From Rhodospirillales bacterium Ga0074136 (GTDB lineage Bacteria; Pseudomonadota; Alphaproteobacteria; Acetobacterales; Acetobacteraceae), in assembly GCA_001464375.1 (NCBI GenBank), contig LNEW01000116.1, positions 1 to 60,634 on the forward strand: a stretch of 60,634 bases of DNA. Reading direction: 5' to 3'. Numbering within the stretch: position 1 is the first letter of the stretch; each line of letters opens with the position of its first letter. This document shows, in pieces, positions 6,688 through 15,842 of the stretch. The notes below the pieces were generated by a model. It saw only the letters and a program-made list of their open reading frames with translations. It made no database searches and had not been told where the DNA came from. A program made the position numbers and the translations under genes.

Positions 6688-8481
6688 GTGAAGCCGACGG
6701 ACATCTCGTCCCCGGACTACTTCCACAAGGTGGTCGATTGCCAATGGGCCTGCCCGGCGCATACGCCGGTGCCCGAATACATCCGCATGATCGCGGCGGG
6801 GCGCTACGCCGACGCCTACATGGTGAACTGGCAGTCCAACGTGTTTCCGGGAATCCTCGGGCGCACCTGCGACCGGCCCTGTGAACCCGCCTGCCGGCGC
6901 GGCCGGGTCGAGGAGCAGCCGGTGGCGATCTGCCGGCTCAAGCGCGTCGCGGCCGACAACAAGGGCGACGTGTCGCACCGGATGCCGCCCATCCCGGAGC
7001 AGCGCAACGGCAAGCGCGTCGCCTGCATCGGCGCCGGGCCATCCAGCCTGACCGTCGCGCGGGACCTCGCGCCGCTCGGCTACGAGGTGCATGTCATCGA
7101 CGAGCAGAAGAAGCCCGGCGGCTTCATCCGCCAGCAGATTCCGCGCTTCCGCCTGCCCGAGGAAGTGATCGACGAGGAATGCGGCTACATCCTCGACCGC
7201 GGCGGCGTGGTCAGCCACCAGGACCGCCGCGTCGACAGCCTCAAGGCGCTGCTGGACGAGGGCTATGACGCGGTCTTCGTGGGGTCCGGTGCGCCGCGCG
7301 GCCGCGAACTGGACGTGCCCGGCCGCGCCGAGGCCGCGGCGCATATCCACCTGGGGATCGACTGGCTGGCCTCGGTCTCCTTCGGCCATGTGAAGGAGGT
7401 CGGGCGGCGCGTGATCGTGCTCGGCGGCGGCAATACGGCGATGGATTGCTGCCGGTCGGCGCGACGCCTCGGCGGCGAGGAGGTCAAGGTCGTCGTCCGG
7501 TCCGGCTTCGAGGAAATGAAGGCGTCCCCCTGGGAGAAGGAGGACGCGATCGGCGAAGGCATCCCGATCCTGAACTTCCTCGTGCCCAAGCAGGTGCTGC
7601 ACGACAATGGCCGCCTGACCGGCATGGTGTTCGAGAAGGTCGCCGCCCAATACGACGACAAGGGCCGCCGCCAGCTGCTGCCGACCGGCGAGCCGGACGT
7701 GACCATCGAGGCCGACCAGGTGCTGGTCGCGATCGGCCAGGAGAACGCCTTCCCCTGGATCGAGCGCGATTCGGGCGTCGAGTTCGACCGCTGGGGCCTG
7801 CCGAAGCTCGACCAGGCGACCTTCCAGTCGACCAATCCGCGCGTGTTCTTCGGCGGCGATGCGGCCTTCGGGCCGAAGAACATCATCTGGGCCGTGGCGC
7901 ATGGGCACGAGGCGGCGGTGTCGATCGACATCTTCTGCCAGGGCGGCGACGTGGCGCAGCGACCCGACCCCGAGGTGCGCATCGCCAGCCAGAAGATGGG
8001 CATCCATGAATGGGCCTATGACAACGCGATCTCGCCCGACCTGCGCTACAAGGTGCCGCATATCCCGCCGGAGAAGGCGCTGCGCGACATCACGGTCGAG
8101 GTCGAGCTCGGCTTCGACCGGGAGATGGCGTATCTCGAGACGCAGCGCTGCCTGAACTGCGACGTGCAGACCGTGTTCAACGCCAAGACCTGCATCGAAT
8201 GCGATGCCTGTGTCGACATCTGCCCGACCGACTGCATCACCTTCACCGAGAATGGCGACGAGGACGACCTGCGCACGCGCCTCAAGGCGCCGGCGGTCAA
8301 CCTGTACCAGGACCTGTATGTCCAGGATGGCCTCAAGACCGGCCGTGTCATGGTGAAGGACGAGGATGTCTGCCTGCACTGCGGCATGTGCGCCGAGCGC
8401 TGCCCGACCGGTGCCTGGGACATGCAGAAATTCCTGCTCGAGACCGCGAAGCCGAAGGCGCACGCATGCCACAGCCGCTAA
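6688..8481 (+). CDS. GltD-like FAD/NAD(P)H iron-sulfur flavoprotein, electron partner of the 2-oxoacid oxidoreductase
   Basis: 597-residue flavoprotein that should move electrons between iron-sulfur clusters, FAD and NAD(P)H. An N-terminal cysteine region (C18, C22 and TCDRPCEPAC, C61/C65/C69) is like glutamate synthase small subunit. Then come the FAD motif IGAGPSS, a second nucleotide motif LGGGNTAMDC, and GGDAAFGPKNIIWAVAHG closing the FAD site. The C-terminus adds two ferredoxin-like 4Fe-4S motifs (CIECDACVDICPTDC and CLHCGMCAERCPTG). The start is GTG with AGGGAGG eight bases upstream. It overlaps the next gene, an oxidoreductase alpha subunit, by 16 bases, which strongly suggests one complex. 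The 239 bases before it show no gene. Confidence 0.88.
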   Translation: MKPTDISSPDYFHKVVDCQWACPAHTPVPEYIRMIAAGRYADAYMVNWQSNVFPGILGRTCDRPCEPACRRGRVEEQPVAICRLKRVAADNKGDVSHRMPPIPEQRNGKRVACIGAGPSSLTVARDLAPLGYEVHVIDEQKKPGGFIRQQIPRFRLPEEVIDEECGYILDRGGVVSHQDRRVDSLKALLDEGYDAVFVGSGAPRGRELDVPGRAEAAAHIHLGIDWLASVSFGHVKEVGRRVIVLGGGNTAMDCCRSARRLGGEEVKVVVRSGFEEMKASPWEKEDAIGEGIPILNFLVPKQVLHDNGRLTGMVFEKVAAQYDDKGRRQLLPTGEPDVTIEADQVLVAIGQENAFPWIERDSGVEFDRWGLPKLDQATFQSTNPRVFFGGDAAFGPKNIIWAVAHGHEAAVSIDIFCQGGDVAQRPDPEVRIASQKMGIHEWAYDNAISPDLRYKVPHIPPEKALRDITVEVELGFDREMAYLETQRCLNCDVQTVFNAKTCIECDACVDICPTDCITFTENGDEDDLRTRLKAPAVNLYQDLYVQDGLKTGRVMVKDEDVCLHCGMCAERCPTGAWDMQKFLLETAKPKAHACHSR

Positions 8482-10307
8482 CCGCGACGAACGACTTCGT
8501 CGTCAAATTCGCCAACGTCAACGGATCAGGCTCCGCCTCCGCCAATGGGCTGTTCGCGAAATCCATCCTGCGCATGGGCATTCCCATCGCGTCGCGCAAC
8601 ATCTTCCCGTCCAACATCCAGGGCCTGCCCACCTGGTTCGAGGTGCGGGTGAGCGAGGCCGGCCACATGGGCCGGCGCGGCGGCGTCGACATGATGGTCG
8701 CGATGAACCCGCAGACCTGGGACCGCGATGTCGCCGAGATCGAGCCCGGTGGCTACCTGTTCTACGATTCGACGCGGCCCATGCCGAAGTCGCGCTTCCG
8801 CGACGACATCACCGTCATCGGCGTGCCGCTGACCGAGATCACCAACGCCGCCTATACCGACCCGCGGCAGCGGCAGTTGTTCAAGAACATCGTCTATCTC
8901 GGTGCGCTGTCGGCGTTGCTCGATATGGAGGTCGAGGCGGTCCAGCAGGCCATCGCCGCGCAGTTCCGCGGCAAGGAGAAGCTGGTGCCGGCGAACTACG
9001 CCGCGCTGGAGAAGGGCCGTGCCTGGGCGCAGGAGAACCTGGCCTGCCCGATCGGCCTGACGCTGAAGCGCGCCGACGCGGTGGGCGAGCGCATCTTCGT
9101 GGAAGGCAATGCCGCGGCCGCGCTGGGCGCGGTGTATGGCGGCGCCACGGTCTGCGCCTGGTATCCCATCACGCCCTCCACCTCGCTGGCGGAAGCCTTC
9201 GAAAAGTACTGCGGCCAGCTGCGCAAGGACCCCGAGACCGGTGCCAAGCGCTACGCCATCGTGCAGGCGGAGGATGAACTGGCCTCGATCGGCATGGTGA
9301 TCGGCGCGGCCTGGAACGGCGCGCGGTCCTTCACCGCCACATCGGGGCCCGGCATCTCGCTGATGCAGGAATTCGTGGGCCTCGCGTATTTCGCGGAGAT
9401 CCCCGCGGTGATCTTCGACGTGCAGCGCGCCGGCCCGTCCACCGGCATGCCGACCCGCACGCAGCAATCGGACCTGCTCTCGGCCGCCTATGCCAGCCAC
9501 GGCGACACCAAGCACGTGCTGCTGCTGCCCGAGGACCCGACCGAGTGCTTCGCCTTCGGCGCCGACGCCTTCGACCTGGCGGACCGGCTGCAGACGCCGA
9601 TCTTCGTCATGCTCGACCTCGACATCGGCATGAACGACTGGCTGTGCGAACCCTTCAAGTGGGATCCGGCGCGGCGGATGGACCGCGGCAAGGTGCTGGA
9701 TGCGGCGGGGCTCGATGCCGCGGTGTCCTTCGGGCGCTACCTCGATGTGGATGGCGACGGCATCCCGTACCGCACCTGGCCGGGCACGCACCCCGAAAAG
9801 GGTGCCTTCTTCACGCGCGGCACATCGCGCGACCGGCATGCGCGCTACACCGAGGAAGGCGCGCCCTATGTCGACAACATGGAGCGCCTGCTGAAGAAGT
9901 TCGGCACCGCCAAGTCGATCGTCCCGCGGCCCATGACCATTCCGGCGAAGCAGCCGGCGCGCGATGGCGTGATCTTCTATGGGTCTTCCTCGGCGGCCAT
10001 GCGCGAGGCGCTGGCCGCGCTGGAAGCGGACGGCATCCACCTCGATGCCATGCGCATCCGCGCCTTCCCCTTCCACCAGGACGTGGCCGACTTCGTCGCC
10101 GCGCATGAGCGCGTGTTCGTGGTCGAGCAGAACCGCGACGCGCAGCTGCGCACCCTGCTCGTGAACGAGGAGGAGATCGACCCGGCCCGGCTGATCCCCG
10201 TGCTGCATTTCGACGGCACGCCGATCACCGCGCGCTTCATCCACGCCGCCATCGCGAAGCGCGCCGCGGCGGCCAACATCCTGCCCTTCCGCAAGGCCAC
10301 GCCATGA
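8466..10307 (+). CDS. korA: 2-oxoacid:ferredoxin oxidoreductase, fused gamma-alpha subunit (KorA type)
   Basis: CoA-dependent oxidative decarboxylation of a 2-oxoacid, most likely 2-oxoglutarate to succinyl-CoA. The 613-residue chain has an N-terminal gamma domain (about 1-190; GSASANGLFAKSILRMGI, GRRGGVDMMVAMN) and an alpha domain beginning near GNAAAALGAVYGGATVCAWYP, with YPITPSTSLAE, ATSGPGISLMQEF and the substrate-side segment GPSTGMPTRTQQSDL. This gamma-alpha order is that of bacterial KorA. The ATG at 8466 lies inside the previous gene, and the stop overlaps the beta-subunit ATG. I base 2-oxoglutarate on family resemblance only; another 2-oxoacid is possible. Confidence 0.88.
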   Translation: MPQPLTATNDFVVKFANVNGSGSASANGLFAKSILRMGIPIASRNIFPSNIQGLPTWFEVRVSEAGHMGRRGGVDMMVAMNPQTWDRDVAEIEPGGYLFYDSTRPMPKSRFRDDITVIGVPLTEITNAAYTDPRQRQLFKNIVYLGALSALLDMEVEAVQQAIAAQFRGKEKLVPANYAALEKGRAWAQENLACPIGLTLKRADAVGERIFVEGNAAAALGAVYGGATVCAWYPITPSTSLAEAFEKYCGQLRKDPETGAKRYAIVQAEDELASIGMVIGAAWNGARSFTATSGPGISLMQEFVGLAYFAEIPAVIFDVQRAGPSTGMPTRTQQSDLLSAAYASHGDTKHVLLLPEDPTECFAFGADAFDLADRLQTPIFVMLDLDIGMNDWLCEPFKWDPARRMDRGKVLDAAGLDAAVSFGRYLDVDGDGIPYRTWPGTHPEKGAFFTRGTSRDRHARYTEEGAPYVDNMERLLKKFGTAKSIVPRPMTIPAKQPARDGVIFYGSSSAAMREALAALEADGIHLDAMRIRAFPFHQDVADFVAAHERVFVVEQNRDAQLRTLLVNEEEIDPARLIPVLHFDGTPITARFIHAAIAKRAAAANILPFRKATP

Positions 10308-11359
10308 GCTACCTGCCGAAGCCCAAGCTGCACCACCCGAAGCTGCCGACCAACGCGATCGGGCTGACGCGGCGCGACTACGAGGGTGCGATCAGCACGC
10401 TGTGTGCCGGCTGCGGTCATGACTCGATCAGCGCGGCCATCATCCAGGCCTGCTTCAACCTCTCGCTGCCGCCGCACCGCATCGCCAAGATGTCGGGCAT
10501 CGGCTGTTCGTCGAAGACGCCGACCTATTTCCTCGGCAATGCGCATGGCTTCAATTCGGTGCACGGGCGCATGCCGTCGGTTCTGACCGGCGCGTACCTG
10601 GCGAACCGTGACCTGGTGTACCTCGGTGTCTCGGGCGATGGCGACAGCGCGTCGATCGGCTTCGGGCAGTTCGCGCACTCGATCCGCCGCGGCGTGAACA
10701 TGTGCTACATCGTCGAGAACAACGGCGTGTATGGCCTGACCAAGGGGCAGTTTTCCGCCACCTCCGACTGGGGATCGGTCGCCAAGAAGGGCGCGATCAA
10801 CACCGACCAGCCGATCGACCTGGCCGCCATCGCGGTGCAGTTGGGCGCGACCTTCGTGGCGCGGTCCTTCTCGGGCGACAAGGAACAGCTGGTGCCGCTG
10901 ATCGAGGCCGCGCTGGTGCATGACGGCGCCGCCTTCATCGACGTGCTGAGCCCCTGCGTCGCCTTCAACAACCACCCCGGCAGCACGAAATCCTACGACT
11001 ATGTGCGCGAACACAATGAGGCGCTGAACAAGCTCGACATCATGCTCCGCCGCGACGAGATCACGGTGCAATACGCGCCCGGCGAGGTCACCGAGGTCAT
11101 GCAGCACGACGGCACGACGCTCCGCCTGCGCAAGCTGCACGAGGGCCACGACCCGACCAATCGCGCATCCGCCATGCACCACATCCTGGAGCGCAAGGCG
11201 GCGGGCGAGATCGTCACCGGCCTGATCTACGTGGACCCGGACCCCTCGGCACTGCACGAGCACCTGGGCACCGTCACCGGGCCGCTGAATGCGCTGGGCG
11301 ACGGCGACCTCAATCCGGGCGTCGATGCGCTGGAAGCGGTCAACGCGTCGCTGCGCTGA
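10304..11359 (+). CDS. korB: 2-oxoacid:ferredoxin oxidoreductase beta subunit (KorB type, thiamine diphosphate)
   Basis: Catalytic thiamine-diphosphate subunit, 351 residues. The ThDP/Mg motif runs from GDGD (111-114) to ENNGVYGLTKGQ (N139-N140). Cysteines C34 and C37 (CAGCGHD), C68 (GIGCSS) and the later SPCVAFNNH match the 4Fe-4S ligand pattern of beta subunits. The ATG overlaps the alpha stop by four bases, and its stop is directly followed, without a gap, by the next gene. With the upstream flavoprotein it makes an electron route from 2-oxoacid to NAD(P)+ or the reverse. Confidence 0.9.
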   Translation: MSYLPKPKLHHPKLPTNAIGLTRRDYEGAISTLCAGCGHDSISAAIIQACFNLSLPPHRIAKMSGIGCSSKTPTYFLGNAHGFNSVHGRMPSVLTGAYLANRDLVYLGVSGDGDSASIGFGQFAHSIRRGVNMCYIVENNGVYGLTKGQFSATSDWGSVAKKGAINTDQPIDLAAIAVQLGATFVARSFSGDKEQLVPLIEAALVHDGAAFIDVLSPCVAFNNHPGSTKSYDYVREHNEALNKLDIMLRRDEITVQYAPGEVTEVMQHDGTTLRLRKLHEGHDPTNRASAMHHILERKAAGEIVTGLIYVDPDPSALHEHLGTVTGPLNALGDGDLNPGVDALEAVNASLR

Positions 11360-12604
11360 ATGACCCGGATCCCTGCCACCGGCGCGCCCGCCGATGCCAT
11401 CCTGGCGGCGCTGCAGGCGCGCAAGCAGGGTGACCGCGACTGGCGGCACGGTCGCCTCGCCGTGTATTTCTATTGGCTGGACGAGGAACTCGAGCGCGTC
11501 CAGCAGCAGGCCTACCTGGCCTACTGGACCGAGAACAACCTCGGCCAGCGCGCCTTCCCCAGCCTGAAGTCGCTGGAGGACGAGGTGATCGCCATGGCGC
11601 TGTCGCTGCTCGGCGGCGGCGACAAGGCAGGGGGCACCTTCACCTCCGGCGGGTCGGAGAGCATTTTTCTCGCCATGATGGCGGCGCGCAACCGCGCCCG
11701 CGCGCGCCGCGGCACCAGGCAGCCGAACATCGTGCTGCCGAATTCCGCGCACCTCACCTTCGACCGCGCGGCGGAAGCGCTCGGCATGGAGATCCGCCGC
11801 GTGCCGGTCGGCGCCGACCTGCGCGCCGATGTCGTGGCGATGCAAGCGCGCATGGATGGCGACACCGTCGCGCTGGTGGGTTCCGCGCCCAACTATCCGT
11901 TCGGAACCTTCGACCCGATCGCGCAGATCGCGGCGCTGGCGGCGCAGCACGGCGCCTGGATGCATGTCGATGCCTGCGTGGGCGGCTTCCTCGCCCCCTA
12001 TGTGCGCCGGCTTGGCCACGACATCCCGGCCTTCGAATTGTCCGTGCCGGGTGTCACGTCGATGTCGGCCGACATCCACAAGCACGGCATGGCGCCGAAG
12101 GGGGCGTCGCTGTTGCTCGTGGCCGATGCGGCGGATCGCGAATGGCACAAATTCGACAGCCGTGCGTGGCAGCGCGGGCCGTACTCCGCCTACACGACGC
12201 AGGGCACGCGCCCGGGTGGCGCGGTGGCGGCCGCCTGGGCGGCGATGAACCACCTCGGCGACGAGGGCTACCTGCGCTGTGCGCGCCTCATCATGGAGGC
12301 CAAGGCCATCATGACCGCGGGCATCGCCGCCATCCCGGGCCTCGACATCCTGCAGCCGAGCGACATCGGCATCTTCGTCTGGCGCGCGAGCGACCCGACG
12401 CTCGACATCGGCAAGGTCGCCGCCGCGCTGGATGCCGAGGGGTGGCTGGTCGGCCGCCAGCAGGAACCCGACGGCATCCACCTGCATCTCAACCCGATCC
12501 ATCGCGAGGTCGCGGGCGAGTATGTGGAGGCGGTGTCGCGCGCGGTCGCGGCCGCACGCGGCGGGCAGAACAGCCGGATCGGCGCGAACGAGCGGACCTA
12601 CTGA
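11360..12604 (+). CDS. PLP-dependent decarboxylase/lyase, sphingosine-1-phosphate lyase-glutamate decarboxylase superfamily
   Basis: 414-residue fold-type I PLP enzyme. The cofactor lysine is K241 in SADIHKHGMAPKG, the hallmark of group II decarboxylases and S1P lyases; upstream are TSGGSESIFLAMMAARN (phosphate binding) and HVDACVGGF (Asp holding the pyridine nitrogen). The conserved Gly/Tyr region GPYSAYTTQGTRPGG resembles S1P-lyase relatives more than glutamate decarboxylase. The substrate is unknown. It starts on the base after the korB stop, so it is probably in the same transcript; a shared substrate route is inference only. Convergent with the patatin gene that follows. Confidence 0.82.
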   Translation: MTRIPATGAPADAILAALQARKQGDRDWRHGRLAVYFYWLDEELERVQQQAYLAYWTENNLGQRAFPSLKSLEDEVIAMALSLLGGGDKAGGTFTSGGSESIFLAMMAARNRARARRGTRQPNIVLPNSAHLTFDRAAEALGMEIRRVPVGADLRADVVAMQARMDGDTVALVGSAPNYPFGTFDPIAQIAALAAQHGAWMHVDACVGGFLAPYVRRLGHDIPAFELSVPGVTSMSADIHKHGMAPKGASLLLVADAADREWHKFDSRAWQRGPYSAYTTQGTRPGGAVAAAWAAMNHLGDEGYLRCARLIMEAKAIMTAGIAAIPGLDILQPSDIGIFVWRASDPTLDIGKVAAALDAEGWLVGRQQEPDGIHLHLNPIHREVAGEYVEAVSRAVAAARGGQNSRIGANERTY

Positions 12605-13701: not shown

Positions 13702-14925
13702 CTACTTGCTGTCGAGCCGCGTCACCGGCGACCAATCCGCCGGCGGGCCATCGGGAAAGCGCGCGAGCCGCGCGGCATAGGCCGCGACCAGCGGGTCCTG
13801 CAACGGGTCACCGCATTCGTGCAGCGCCTCGCGCGCGGCGCCGAACTGGCCGGCGCGGAACCGGCGGATCGCCTCGCCCCAGGCGGGCAGGCGCGCCACC
13901 AGCGCGCGGTCGGCCAGCAGCGGCGCGTCCTGCGCGTCCGATGCCACGGACAGCCCGACCAGCTCATGCACCTCGACAGCGTCCTGCGTGCCCTTGGCCA
14001 GTACCACATCCACCGGGCGGAACACGAAACCGCTGCCCGCGCCGATGCGCGTCGCCTCGCTCACCAGGATCTGCGTGCCGTACATCTTGTTCATGCCCTC
14101 GAGCCGCGAGGCCAAGTTCACCATGGACCCGATCGCCGTATAGGCCATGCGGTCCGACGAACCGACATTGCCCACCACCGCATCGCCGCTGTGCACGCCG
14201 AAGCGCGTGTGCAGGCGCGGCCAGCCGCGCGCGGCGAACTCTTCCTCGAGCCGCAGCGTCAAATGCCGCGCGTGCAGCGCGGCGCGGCAGCCGTGCAGCG
14301 CATGCGCCAGGTCGCGCTTGGGCGCGTTCCAGATCGCCATCACCGCGTCGCCGATGTACTTGTCGATGGTGGCGTGGTGCGCCAGCAGGTCGTCGGTCAG
14401 CGCCTGGAAATAGGTGGAGGTGATGCGCATCAGCTCCTCCGGGTCCATGCGTTCGGCAATGCTGGTGAAGCCCTGCACGTCGGAGAACATCACGGTCAGG
14501 CGCCGGCGTTCTCCGCCCAGTTCGGCCGCAGCGCCCTCGGCCATCAGCTTGCGCACCAGGTCGCGCGGCACGTACACGCTGAACAGGCGCAGCGCGGCCT
14601 TCATGCCGCCCATCGCCTCGCCTAGCGCGTTCACCTCCGCCGTGCCGCCTGGCGGCGCGACGGGGTCCGCGAGGTCGAGCCGCCGGACCGCCTCGGCCTC
14701 CCGCGCCAGGCGCCGCAGCGCCGCGCCGACGCGCTGCGCCGCGAAGGCCGCGCCAGCGAACCCCACCAGCAGCCCGACCATCGCCAGCGCGACAGCCGAG
14801 AGCGGTGCGCCGGTCGGCGTGGCCGCGGCGGTCAGCGCCAGCGCGCCCAGCAGGAGGCTGCCCACGCAGGCAATCAGCAGCAGCAGCAGCACCAGCAGGG
14901 AGGGGCCGCGCGCGCCGGTGCTCAC
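13702..14925 (-). CDS. membrane-anchored class III adenylate/guanylate cyclase
   Basis: 407 residues: two N-terminal membrane helices (about 9-35 and 42-62), a HAMP-like linker (63-115) and a class III cyclase domain from about 140. Metal aspartates are D149 (FSDVQGFT) and D193 (KYIGDAVM); the purine-selecting pair is K189 and T263 (AYTAIG); the transition-state residues are N270 and R274 (VNLASR). The full set implies activity, and Lys/Thr is the pattern of class IIIb adenylate cyclases, several of which respond to bicarbonate. The last 90 residues form a helical extension. The GTG start overlaps the stop of the HD protein gene, so the two are co-translated. Confidence 0.9.
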   Translation of the reverse strand: MSTGARGPSLLVLLLLLIACVGSLLLGALALTAAATPTGAPLSAVALAMVGLLVGFAGAAFAAQRVGAALRRLAREAEAVRRLDLADPVAPPGGTAEVNALGEAMGGMKAALRLFSVYVPRDLVRKLMAEGAAAELGGERRRLTVMFSDVQGFTSIAERMDPEELMRITSTYFQALTDDLLAHHATIDKYIGDAVMAIWNAPKRDLAHALHGCRAALHARHLTLRLEEEFAARGWPRLHTRFGVHSGDAVVGNVGSSDRMAYTAIGSMVNLASRLEGMNKMYGTQILVSEATRIGAGSGFVFRPVDVVLAKGTQDAVEVHELVGLSVASDAQDAPLLADRALVARLPAWGEAIRRFRAGQFGAAREALHECGDPLQDPLVAAYAARLARFPDGPPADWSPVTRLDSK

Positions 14926-15842
14926 GGGTCGATCCCCGACCAGGCAAGCAGCGCATCGGCATCCGCGGGATCGAGTGCATCCAGCGCCGCCGCCCCGTCC
15001 TCGGCCGTCGCGCGGGGCAGGCCGAGGCGCCGCGCCGCGCCGGCATAGGCGGCCAGCTGCGCGCCGCGCACGGCTTCGACCCCCATGGCACGCGCCGGCG
15101 CGGTGGCCGGCGGCTGGAGGCGCAGCAGCGCGACGCGCGCGGCGTGGCTCGCGACACCCTCCGGCGCGGCCTGCCCCGCCGAAGCCAATTCGCGCGCGAG
15201 GAGCCGGCTCAGCCGCGGGCCAAGACGCGGCAGGCTGCTACCGAACAGGTCCGCCTCGCGTGCCAGGCGGCAGGACAGGTCCGGCGCCTCGTGCTCCTCC
15301 CAAGGCCATGTGGTGGCGAGGATGATACGCCGCAGGGTCGCGACCTGGTCGGCCGGCAGCCCCTCGGCGCGCGCAATGGCGGCGGCGGCATCGGCGGAGC
15401 GGCGTTCGAGCAGGCCGCGCTCGGCATGGACCTGGCCGTCATGCAGCAGGTCGTGCGCGGCCATCGCAGCGATCGCGAGTGCGGCTTCCTCGTTCGTCAG
15501 CTGGCCCATCCGCCGCGCCGCGCCCGCCAGCCAGCCCATGGCCCGGGTCGCCTCGGCCTGGTGGAGGCGGTCGTGATAGGCGGGTTCCAGGGCGGGCGGA
15601 AAACCGGCGCCATGGCGGTCGACCGCCCGTGCGATGGCCAGCGCGGTGCGTTGCGCGGGCGCACGGTCGTCCACGCCGCCCGTGGCATCCGCCAGCGCCG
15701 CGATGACCGCCGCTTCCATGTCCGGCGGCTGGTCGCGCAGCGCGACCAGCGCCTGTTCGGCGGCCAGCATCGCGCGCCGCGGTGCAGCCTGCGCCAGCGC
15801 GAGGTCAAGGACGGTGCTGTTCGTCGCGGCCGTTGCGGCCAT
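14922..15842 (-). CDS. HD-domain phosphohydrolase resembling class I cyclic nucleotide phosphodiesterases
   Basis: 306 residues. Y89-H90-x3-H94 (YHDRLHQAEATRAM) followed 36 residues later by A129-H130-D131-x2-H134-x-G (AAHDLLHDGQVH) imitates the HNxxHA and HDxxHxG metal motifs of class I phosphodiesterases; H139 is a further candidate ligand. The rest is Ala-rich helices. I infer metal-dependent phosphohydrolase activity, possibly cAMP breakdown, because the stop overlaps the GTG of an adenylate cyclase. The start is the ATG at 15842, inside a CCATGG; open frame continues upstream but its translation is low-complexity. No membrane segment seen. Confidence 0.7.
   Translation of the reverse strand: MAATAATNSTVLDLALAQAAPRRAMLAAEQALVALRDQPPDMEAAVIAALADATGGVDDRAPAQRTALAIARAVDRHGAGFPPALEPAYHDRLHQAEATRAMGWLAGAARRMGQLTNEEAALAIAAMAAHDLLHDGQVHAERGLLERRSADAAAAIARAEGLPADQVATLRRIILATTWPWEEHEAPDLSCRLAREADLFGSSLPRLGPRLSRLLARELASAGQAAPEGVASHAARVALLRLQPPATAPARAMGVEAVRGAQLAAYAGAARRLGLPRATAEDGAAALDALDPADADALLAWSGIDP

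Follow-up and report, generated by a model that had tools for sequence, protein, structure and literature searches.

The window analysed here is a stretch of 60,634 nucleotides (nt) covering contig LNEW01000116.1 of the alphaproteobacterium Rhodospirillales bacterium Ga0074136. It encodes an HD-domain protein and, in an overlapping reading frame, a class III adenylate cyclase. We propose, with a probability of about 0.7, that the HD protein is a class I-type cyclic nucleotide phosphodiesterase (PDE) translationally coupled to the cyclase, the two acting as breaker and maker of cyclic AMP (cAMP). The two genes are inherited together with a patatin lipase gene in some Roseomonas-like bacteria. 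The original prediction, made from the DNA letters of this locus, had noted that the HD stop codon overlaps the GTG start of the cyclase and that the HD protein carries YHxxxH followed by HDxxHxG. Both observations are correct: the shared bases are GTGA, and the motifs occupy residues Y89-H94 and H130-G136. The arrangement is more than a chance observation, since no motif residue varies across the 34 aligned family members and the overlap recurs in 19 of 19 loci where intact HD, cyclase and patatin genes adjoin.

The HD protein appears to carry the catalytic residue set of class I PDEs. Twelve columns are invariant in the 34-row family alignment (Y89, H90, H94, H130, D131, H134, G136, E146, T177, D198, S202 and E218), in which identity to the window protein falls as low as 17%, and these columns include the acid, metal and base residues of the class I enzymes. 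In mammalian PDE4D, His164, His200, Asp201 and Asp318 bind metals, and Glu230 and Thr271 likewise have roles at the active site. The histidine spacing of the HD protein (4-36-4 for H90, H94, H130 and H134) is the same as that of PDE4D His160, His164, His200 and His204. The invariant E218 corresponds to PDE4D Glu339, and its distance from D198 is 20 residues, compared with 21 from Asp318 to Glu339. Passages of one PDE4D paper describe His160 as the acid and Glu339 as its partner, and name His164, His200, Asp201 and Asp318 at the active site (PMC12839185). The mammalian class I enzymes PDE1-11, among which PDE7A and PDE8A are the best matches, thus share with the HD protein the YHxxxH, HDxxHxG, LE, AT and AD motifs as well as the histidine spacing. 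In contrast to them, the HD protein is bacterial, stands alone at about 300 amino acids (aa), has shorter loops after HDxxHxG and after the Thr, lacks a recognisable purine-binding Gln and falls below the Pfam cut-off.

Profile searches indicate that these residues reflect descent. Taken singly, the HD protein stays under the curated Pfam cut-offs, with E 0.0083 for HD and E 0.28 for PDEase_I, and has no match in NCBIfam. Within its own genome, no other protein was reported to match PDEase_I at E<=10 (its own E being 0.35). The search for relatives covered four overlapping samples, with matches in 17 of 249 genomes at family level, 25 of 395 at order level, 12 of 385 at class level and 10 of 398 at phylum level; each count includes the window's genome. 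At E<=10, PDEase_I matches 10 of 16 near relatives (best E 5.7e-6), and Pfam HD matches 3 of 16. A profile built from these 16 reaches a PDE in the PDB at E 6.5e-4, and the best 60 of its 78 rows at E<=10 are all PDEs. The 34-row alignment combines these 16 with 9 further near and 10 distant relatives, less the partial L023. Left out were also the broken L036 (genome G154), L117 and L123 at contig ends, L022 (taken as the same contig as L112), the two-domain L097, the weak matches L039 and L040, L024 with its 48-residue match, and the later finds L180-L184. The 34-row profile matches PDE7A at E 3.4e-12 over profile positions 84-233, through the later motifs including the D198 region. The best 60 of its 151 PDB matches are all named phosphodiesterase, and most of these name a class I family. 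A profile of the 10 distant relatives alone reaches PDE8A at E 9.1e-10 (among the best 60 of 160 matches at E<=1). The HD protein therefore looks like a divergent bacterial relative of the class I, animal-type cyclic nucleotide PDEs. The original prediction had spoken of the protein mimicking the metal centre of these enzymes. The residues it pointed to are present, but mimicry was rejected in favour of homology on the strength of the class I matches; because the profile searches point to homology, "mimicking" understates the relation.

The family extends beyond the near relatives. A distant branch in other alphaproteobacterial families (L092-L095 and L097) carries YHNxxH and HDxxHDG, and L097, a protein of about 1100 aa, contains two tandem domains of the HD family, the second of them degenerate, with HW in place of HD. 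Pfam PDEase_I lies above its cut-off in 1 of the 398 phylum genomes, and that match is the distant relative L092. Among the matches of the phylum search, four weak ones that were examined (L181-L184) are members of other HD families, while two of the strong ones, in G482 and G555, were already in the profile. The sole new strong member is L180:6211-7038 (genome G1027), which lies in the same phylum, outside the class, and matches the 34-row profile at E 1.6e-37; no cyclase was found by the cyclase profile within 13 kb around it. No relatives were found in plasmid searches.

The HD and cyclase genes are physically linked and are inherited as a pair. Intact HD, cyclase and patatin genes stand side by side in 19 loci, comprising the window, 13 congeneric genomes and 5 genomes of other genera. 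An in-frame cyclase start overlapping the HD stop is available in all 19, with an overlap of 4 nt in 18 and of 1 nt in L029. The overlapping codon is the first possible cyclase start in 12 of these loci, and a longer frame is open upstream in 7. Within the genus the three-gene unit is seen in 14 of 16 HD-positive genomes, the other two loci ending at contig ends (L117, L123). Among 36 chosen genomes, a cyclase match at E<=1e-60, a cut-off of our own choice, is present in nine, which are all nine core HD-positive genomes; it is absent from all 11 HD-negative congeners, from 10 of 10 HD-negative genomes of other genera and from 6 of 6 genomes with a divergent or broken HD gene. Twelve further HD-positive genomes of the genus, outside the 36, have the three genes side by side in 10 cases and contig ends in 2. 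The patatin gene at 68-100% identity tracks the distribution of the cyclase; copies in other genomes reach at most 51%, save one piece of 55% identity belonging to the interrupted unit of G154. Distance matrices of the HD and cyclase proteins correlate with r 0.91 over the 19 loci, a value reached by none of 2000 permutations and explained in part by shared descent. The claim that the two genes form a coupled, co-inherited pair is thus borne out by the overlap, by its presence in 19 of 19 loci and by the genome counts (9/9 against 0/11).

In a 3.0-Mb genome of another genus, the DUF3141, HD, cyclase and patatin frames adjoin one another at positions 4376-8289 of L036 (G154:C6:606000-619000), and all of them are interrupted, as if the unit had decayed as a whole.

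The cyclase is a class III enzyme by its predicted domain content and a probable maker of cAMP. It matches Guanylate_cyc above the cut-off (E 2.8e-18) and HAMP just under its cut-off (E 7.8e-5), and the architecture appears to be a short membrane hairpin, read from the sequence, followed by HAMP and the catalytic domain. All 14 aligned cyclases share D149, K189, D193, T263, N270 and R274. We take D149 and D193 to be the metal-binding Asp residues, N270 and R274 the Asn/Arg pair, and K189 and T263 the ATP-type base-recognition residues. Of the solved structures, those closest to the cyclase are bacterial adenylate cyclases, including 6fht, 2w01 and CyaB. These features bear on the idea that the cyclase makes cyclic GMP (cGMP) and that the HD protein is a cGMP phosphodiesterase. 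cGMP signalling does exist in Alphaproteobacteria, for example in the cGMP-producing Rhodospirillum centenum, and some of the class I enzymes matched by the HD profiles, PDE5 and PDE9, are cGMP-specific. However, the residues at positions 189 and 263 are presumably of the ATP type in all aligned cyclases, and the best solved matches are adenylate cyclases, which makes a cGMP pair very improbable.

The 19 coupled cyclases occur in two lengths. Ten are about 400 aa long, as in the window, and nine are about 700 aa long. Comparison of the window's short form with L028-L032, L114, L118, L120 and L122 suggests that a sensor was lost within one genus. A dCache_1 domain is matched in three of five long cyclases scanned, below the cut-off in L028 and L031 and above it in the distant L038. 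It is unmatched in L114 and L118, yet the N-terminal halves of these proteins align with those of other long cyclases. An apparent 1.2-kb gene inserted between the HD and cyclase genes was considered and rejected, the cyclase reading frame itself being longer there. The short cyclases have no counterpart to the N-terminal region found in the long ones and so may depend on a partner for input; the overlap and the joint inheritance would suit a protein complex no less than a pathway. The HD protein could accordingly be pictured as a degenerate, non-catalytic sensor that regulates the cyclase by contact. A non-catalytic domain would not need the class I acid, metal and base residues, which are invariant in 34 of 34 family members, and we regard this picture as very improbable.

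Several results weigh against a PDE locked to its cyclase. The PDEase_I score of the HD protein is 11.3 bits compared with a gathering score of 24.8, and in a single-sequence search its best PDB match is an unrelated penicillin-binding protein (E 0.33), with PDE7A at E 1.6. An AlphaFold model of the protein from three sequences was poor (pLDDT 51), and Foldseek with this model gave no match at E<=0.001; neither was given any weight. The class I purine-binding Gln (PDE4D Gln369) is apparently replaced by R236, a residue shared by all 19 core members. A control set of nine bacterial HD proteins, which carry YHxxxH and have HDxGY (CDVGY in L184) and no HDxxHxG, also has PDEs as its nearest solved structures when searched as a profile, at E 4.8e-4 over 64 positions, and one of its members, L106, matches PDEase_I by itself at E 2.6e-4. 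On the genomic side, the best cyclase match of G028 (58%) lies on another contig from the HD gene, whose linked cyclase is 56% identical. No cyclase was detected within about 5-6 kb of the divergent HD genes L033, L034, L035 and L037, and none in the stretches taken around the distant loci L039 and L092-L102, some of them on short contigs. In L038 the HD gene and a Cache cyclase gene are 430 nt apart. It had been predicted that a scattered distribution of the two genes would count against the pairing. The core clade is not scattered, but the four divergent loci show that the HD protein can occur without a cyclase nearby. Because of these divergent and distant loci, the HD family is wider than the HD-cyclase pair, and its other members may act differently.

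The control proteins (L103-L106, L108, L109, L181, L183 and L184, to which L182 can be added) define what is distinctive about the family. Like it, they combine YHxxxH with an HD-type motif and give weak PDE matches; unlike it, they have HDxGY, CDVGY or HDAIYD in place of HDxxHxG, and the match spans only 64 positions. L182, with YHxxxH and HDAIYD, had no match in the PDB when searched alone; we take it to be COG4339-like. Because the control family also reaches PDEs, the match of the 16-relative profile (E 6.5e-4) is unspecific by itself. A weak PDEase_I score was likewise rejected as proof of a PDE, other HD proteins scoring similarly. Such a score is a trait of a wider HD group, and the family studied here stands apart by its complete residue set and by a profile match of 150 positions.

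The likeliest alternative to consider is one of substrate. The HD protein could be a PDE-like phosphohydrolase that acts on a 2',3'-cyclic nucleotide monophosphate (2',3'-cNMP), a nucleotide, a cyclic dinucleotide or another phosphoester rather than on the product of the cyclase. The purine-recognition Gln of class I enzymes is apparently unconserved in the HD family, with an invariant Arg instead. The correspondence of R236 to Gln is drawn from motif spacing, because the printed HMMER alignments stop before that region; Q262 is also invariant in 19 of 19 core members. The four HD-only loci are consistent with another substrate as well. A cyclase neighbourhood can mislead on this point, because SpdA, encoded at the rhizobial cyaD1 cyclase locus of Sinorhizobium meliloti, acts on 2',3'-cNMP according to passages of its description (PMC4222275). 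SpdA resembles the HD protein in being a phosphodiesterase encoded at an alphaproteobacterial class III cyclase locus, but it is a class III metallophosphoesterase and belongs to a non-homologous class (PMC4222275, in part). Against another substrate stand the cyclase overlap in 19 of 19 coupled loci and the lack of any such cyclase in 11 of 11 HD-negative congeners. A missing Gln is also compatible with cAMP as substrate: parts of two papers on MpCAPE-PDE report Thr at the Gln position (PMC8115329) and a preference for cAMP nonetheless (PMC5159850). A different substrate is considered unlikely, and cAMP is the probable substrate of the HD protein.

CAPE (COMBINED AC with PDE), which occurs in Marchantia and other streptophytes, offers a close comparison. 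There too a class I PDE is followed by a class III cyclase and the two are made as one unit. The purine Gln of the CAPE PDE is replaced by Thr or Asn according to a section of one account (PMC8115329), and sections of another report that MpCAPE-PDE still hydrolyses cAMP and that its activity was lost when His199 and His203 were changed (PMC5159850). In CAPE the two parts are fused into a single eukaryotic protein, whereas the present locus consists of two overlapping bacterial open reading frames with HAMP on the cyclase, and the presumed Gln position holds Arg in the HD family as opposed to Thr or Asn in CAPE. With these differences, the HD-cyclase pair may be described as a two-gene analogue of the plant PDE-cyclase fusion. 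Part of the literature on CAPE suggests that it may give a bounded cAMP signal with a preset ratio of maker to breaker in one protein (PMC8115329).

We consider a similar mechanism the most likely one for the bacterial pair. A membrane-tethered cyclase would make cAMP, and a soluble HD phosphodiesterase would hydrolyse it to 5'-AMP next to its source. The two proteins would be made from one message and, as the overlap suggests, coupled in translation. Translational coupling would fix the ratio of maker to breaker, and would therefore yield a bounded local cAMP signal. In its broadest form the proposal is that a prokaryotic branch of class I PDEs, with Arg for Gln in base recognition, switches off the signal of a class III cyclase to which it is coupled in translation; this general statement is tentative, and we hold it at somewhat less than even odds. 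The output would probably be carried by cAMP-binding proteins whose genes lie in other parts of the genome. The original prediction had called for a cAMP-binding target gene. The genome encodes 11 cNMP-binding proteins, but a genome-wide search placed none of them in the window. Three of the 11 contain a GE...R(A/S)A cassette, which we take to be of the cAMP type. The other two class III cyclases found by Pfam (G000:C210 and G000:C100) lie outside the window, each within about 2 kb of a cNMP-binding protein, and these neighbouring proteins carry a canonical-looking phosphate cassette.

If this reading is true, eukaryotes are not alone in breaking down cAMP by a class I-type enzyme or in pairing such an enzyme with a class III cyclase, and the CAPE fusion of plants has a two-gene counterpart in bacteria. 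In the parts of the literature consulted, class I PDEs are placed in eukaryotes (PMC8115329, PMC4222275) or "mainly in higher eukaryotes" (PMC4320098), and bacterial PDEs are placed in class III, with class II added in Vibrio (PMC8115329, PMC4222275, PMC4320098). Sections of two other papers are silent on class I PDEs in bacteria (PMC10745434, PMC9293780). No characterised bacterial class I PDE appeared among the matches listed in a literature search that included few subscription journals, which is not proof of absence. A bacterial class I-type PDE would bear on the origin of the animal and plant enzymes, and one locked to a cyclase would provide a simple model in which the source and the sink of cAMP are coupled.

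The surrounding genes give the pair a likely physiological context. On the minus strand, two CoA-transferase open reading frames, a fusion of MaoC and phosphotransacetylase (pta), an acetate/propionate kinase gene (ackA), a DUF3141 gene, the HD gene, the cyclase gene and the patatin gene follow one another in a tightly packed series, with a gap of 3 nt between the cyclase stop and the patatin start (Table 1). The earlier reader had also placed a patatin lipase after the pair and acyl-CoA genes before it, and both placements agree with the gene order seen here. The range originally given, 13702-15842, is correct for the HD and cyclase genes but omits the patatin gene and the upstream genes.

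Table 1. Genes and sequence elements at the HD-cyclase locus, in window coordinates
Feature	Position	Strand	Details
HD protein gene	15842-14922	minus	306 aa, ATG start; translated open reading frame
Class III adenylate cyclase gene (predicted)	14925-13702	minus	407 aa, GTG start
Patatin-like phospholipase gene	13698-12673	minus	341 aa, GTG start; Patatin E 2.4e-21
GTGA overlap, cyclase start inside HD stop	14922..14925	minus	4 nt
YHxxxH (Y89-H90-D-R-L-H94)	15561..15578	minus	predicted acid H90 and metal ligand H94; invariant 34/34
HDxxHxG (H130-D131-L-L-H134-D-G136)	15435..15455	minus	predicted metal-site H130, D131 and H134; invariant 34/34
D198 of "READL"	15249..15251	minus	predicted last metal ligand (PDE4D Asp318); invariant 34/34
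DUF3141 protein	18229-15923	minus	PF11339 E 8.7e-237
Acetate/propionate kinase (ackA)	19529-18279	minus	PF00871 E 1.2e-109
MaoC-phosphotransacetylase (pta) fusion, PRK08190-like	20902-19484	minus	Pfam and NCBIfam matches
Two CoA-transferase open reading frames	22655-20899	minus	upstream of MaoC-pta fusion

The patatin has the motifs GGGxxG, GTSAG and DGG, and the same kind of patatin gene lies downstream in 19 of 19 coupled loci. Upstream of the coupled pair, pta is present in 18 of 19 loci and ackA in 17. Of the 11 HD-negative congeners, 9 carry pta only as copies of 45-51% identity, and 2 carry none at that cut-off. A DUF3141 gene adjoins the HD gene in 14 of 19 coupled loci, all 14 in the window's genus. 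It encodes a protein distantly like a polyhydroxyalkanoate (PHA) synthase (PHA_synth_III_C E 3.3e-8, far below the cut-off), and all 11 HD-negative congeners keep it at 68-70% identity. In the four of these that were examined over 9-14 kb, DUF3141 stands in every case without pta, ackA, HD, cyclase or patatin alongside. DUF3141 was therefore rejected as a fixed part of the module, being beside the HD gene in the window's genus only and standing alone in HD-negative genomes. The theme of acyl, CoA, patatin and DUF3141 genes is real as gene order and is silent on what cAMP controls. The lipid or polyester link proposed for the pair is drawn from gene order alone, and the patatin and the upstream acyl-phosphate and acyl-CoA genes would be its likely setting.

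A terminator-like hairpin, recognised by consensus only, overlaps the end of the patatin gene; five such sites were found in all, compared with 2.1 expected. A promoter scan found none, and a consensus scan says little for a GC-rich alphaproteobacterium. Plus-strand genes at 8199-12604 adjoin the patatin gene and encode a two-subunit 2-oxoacid:ferredoxin oxidoreductase and a pyridoxal-dependent decarboxylase. Both are also found beside the patatin gene in L022, L025 and L027, and in L026 the decarboxylase is missing. Elsewhere in the window, at 2148-2440 on the minus strand, lies a match to the Rfam 5' ureB small RNA (RF02514, 82.9 bits), which is unrelated to the HD-cyclase locus.

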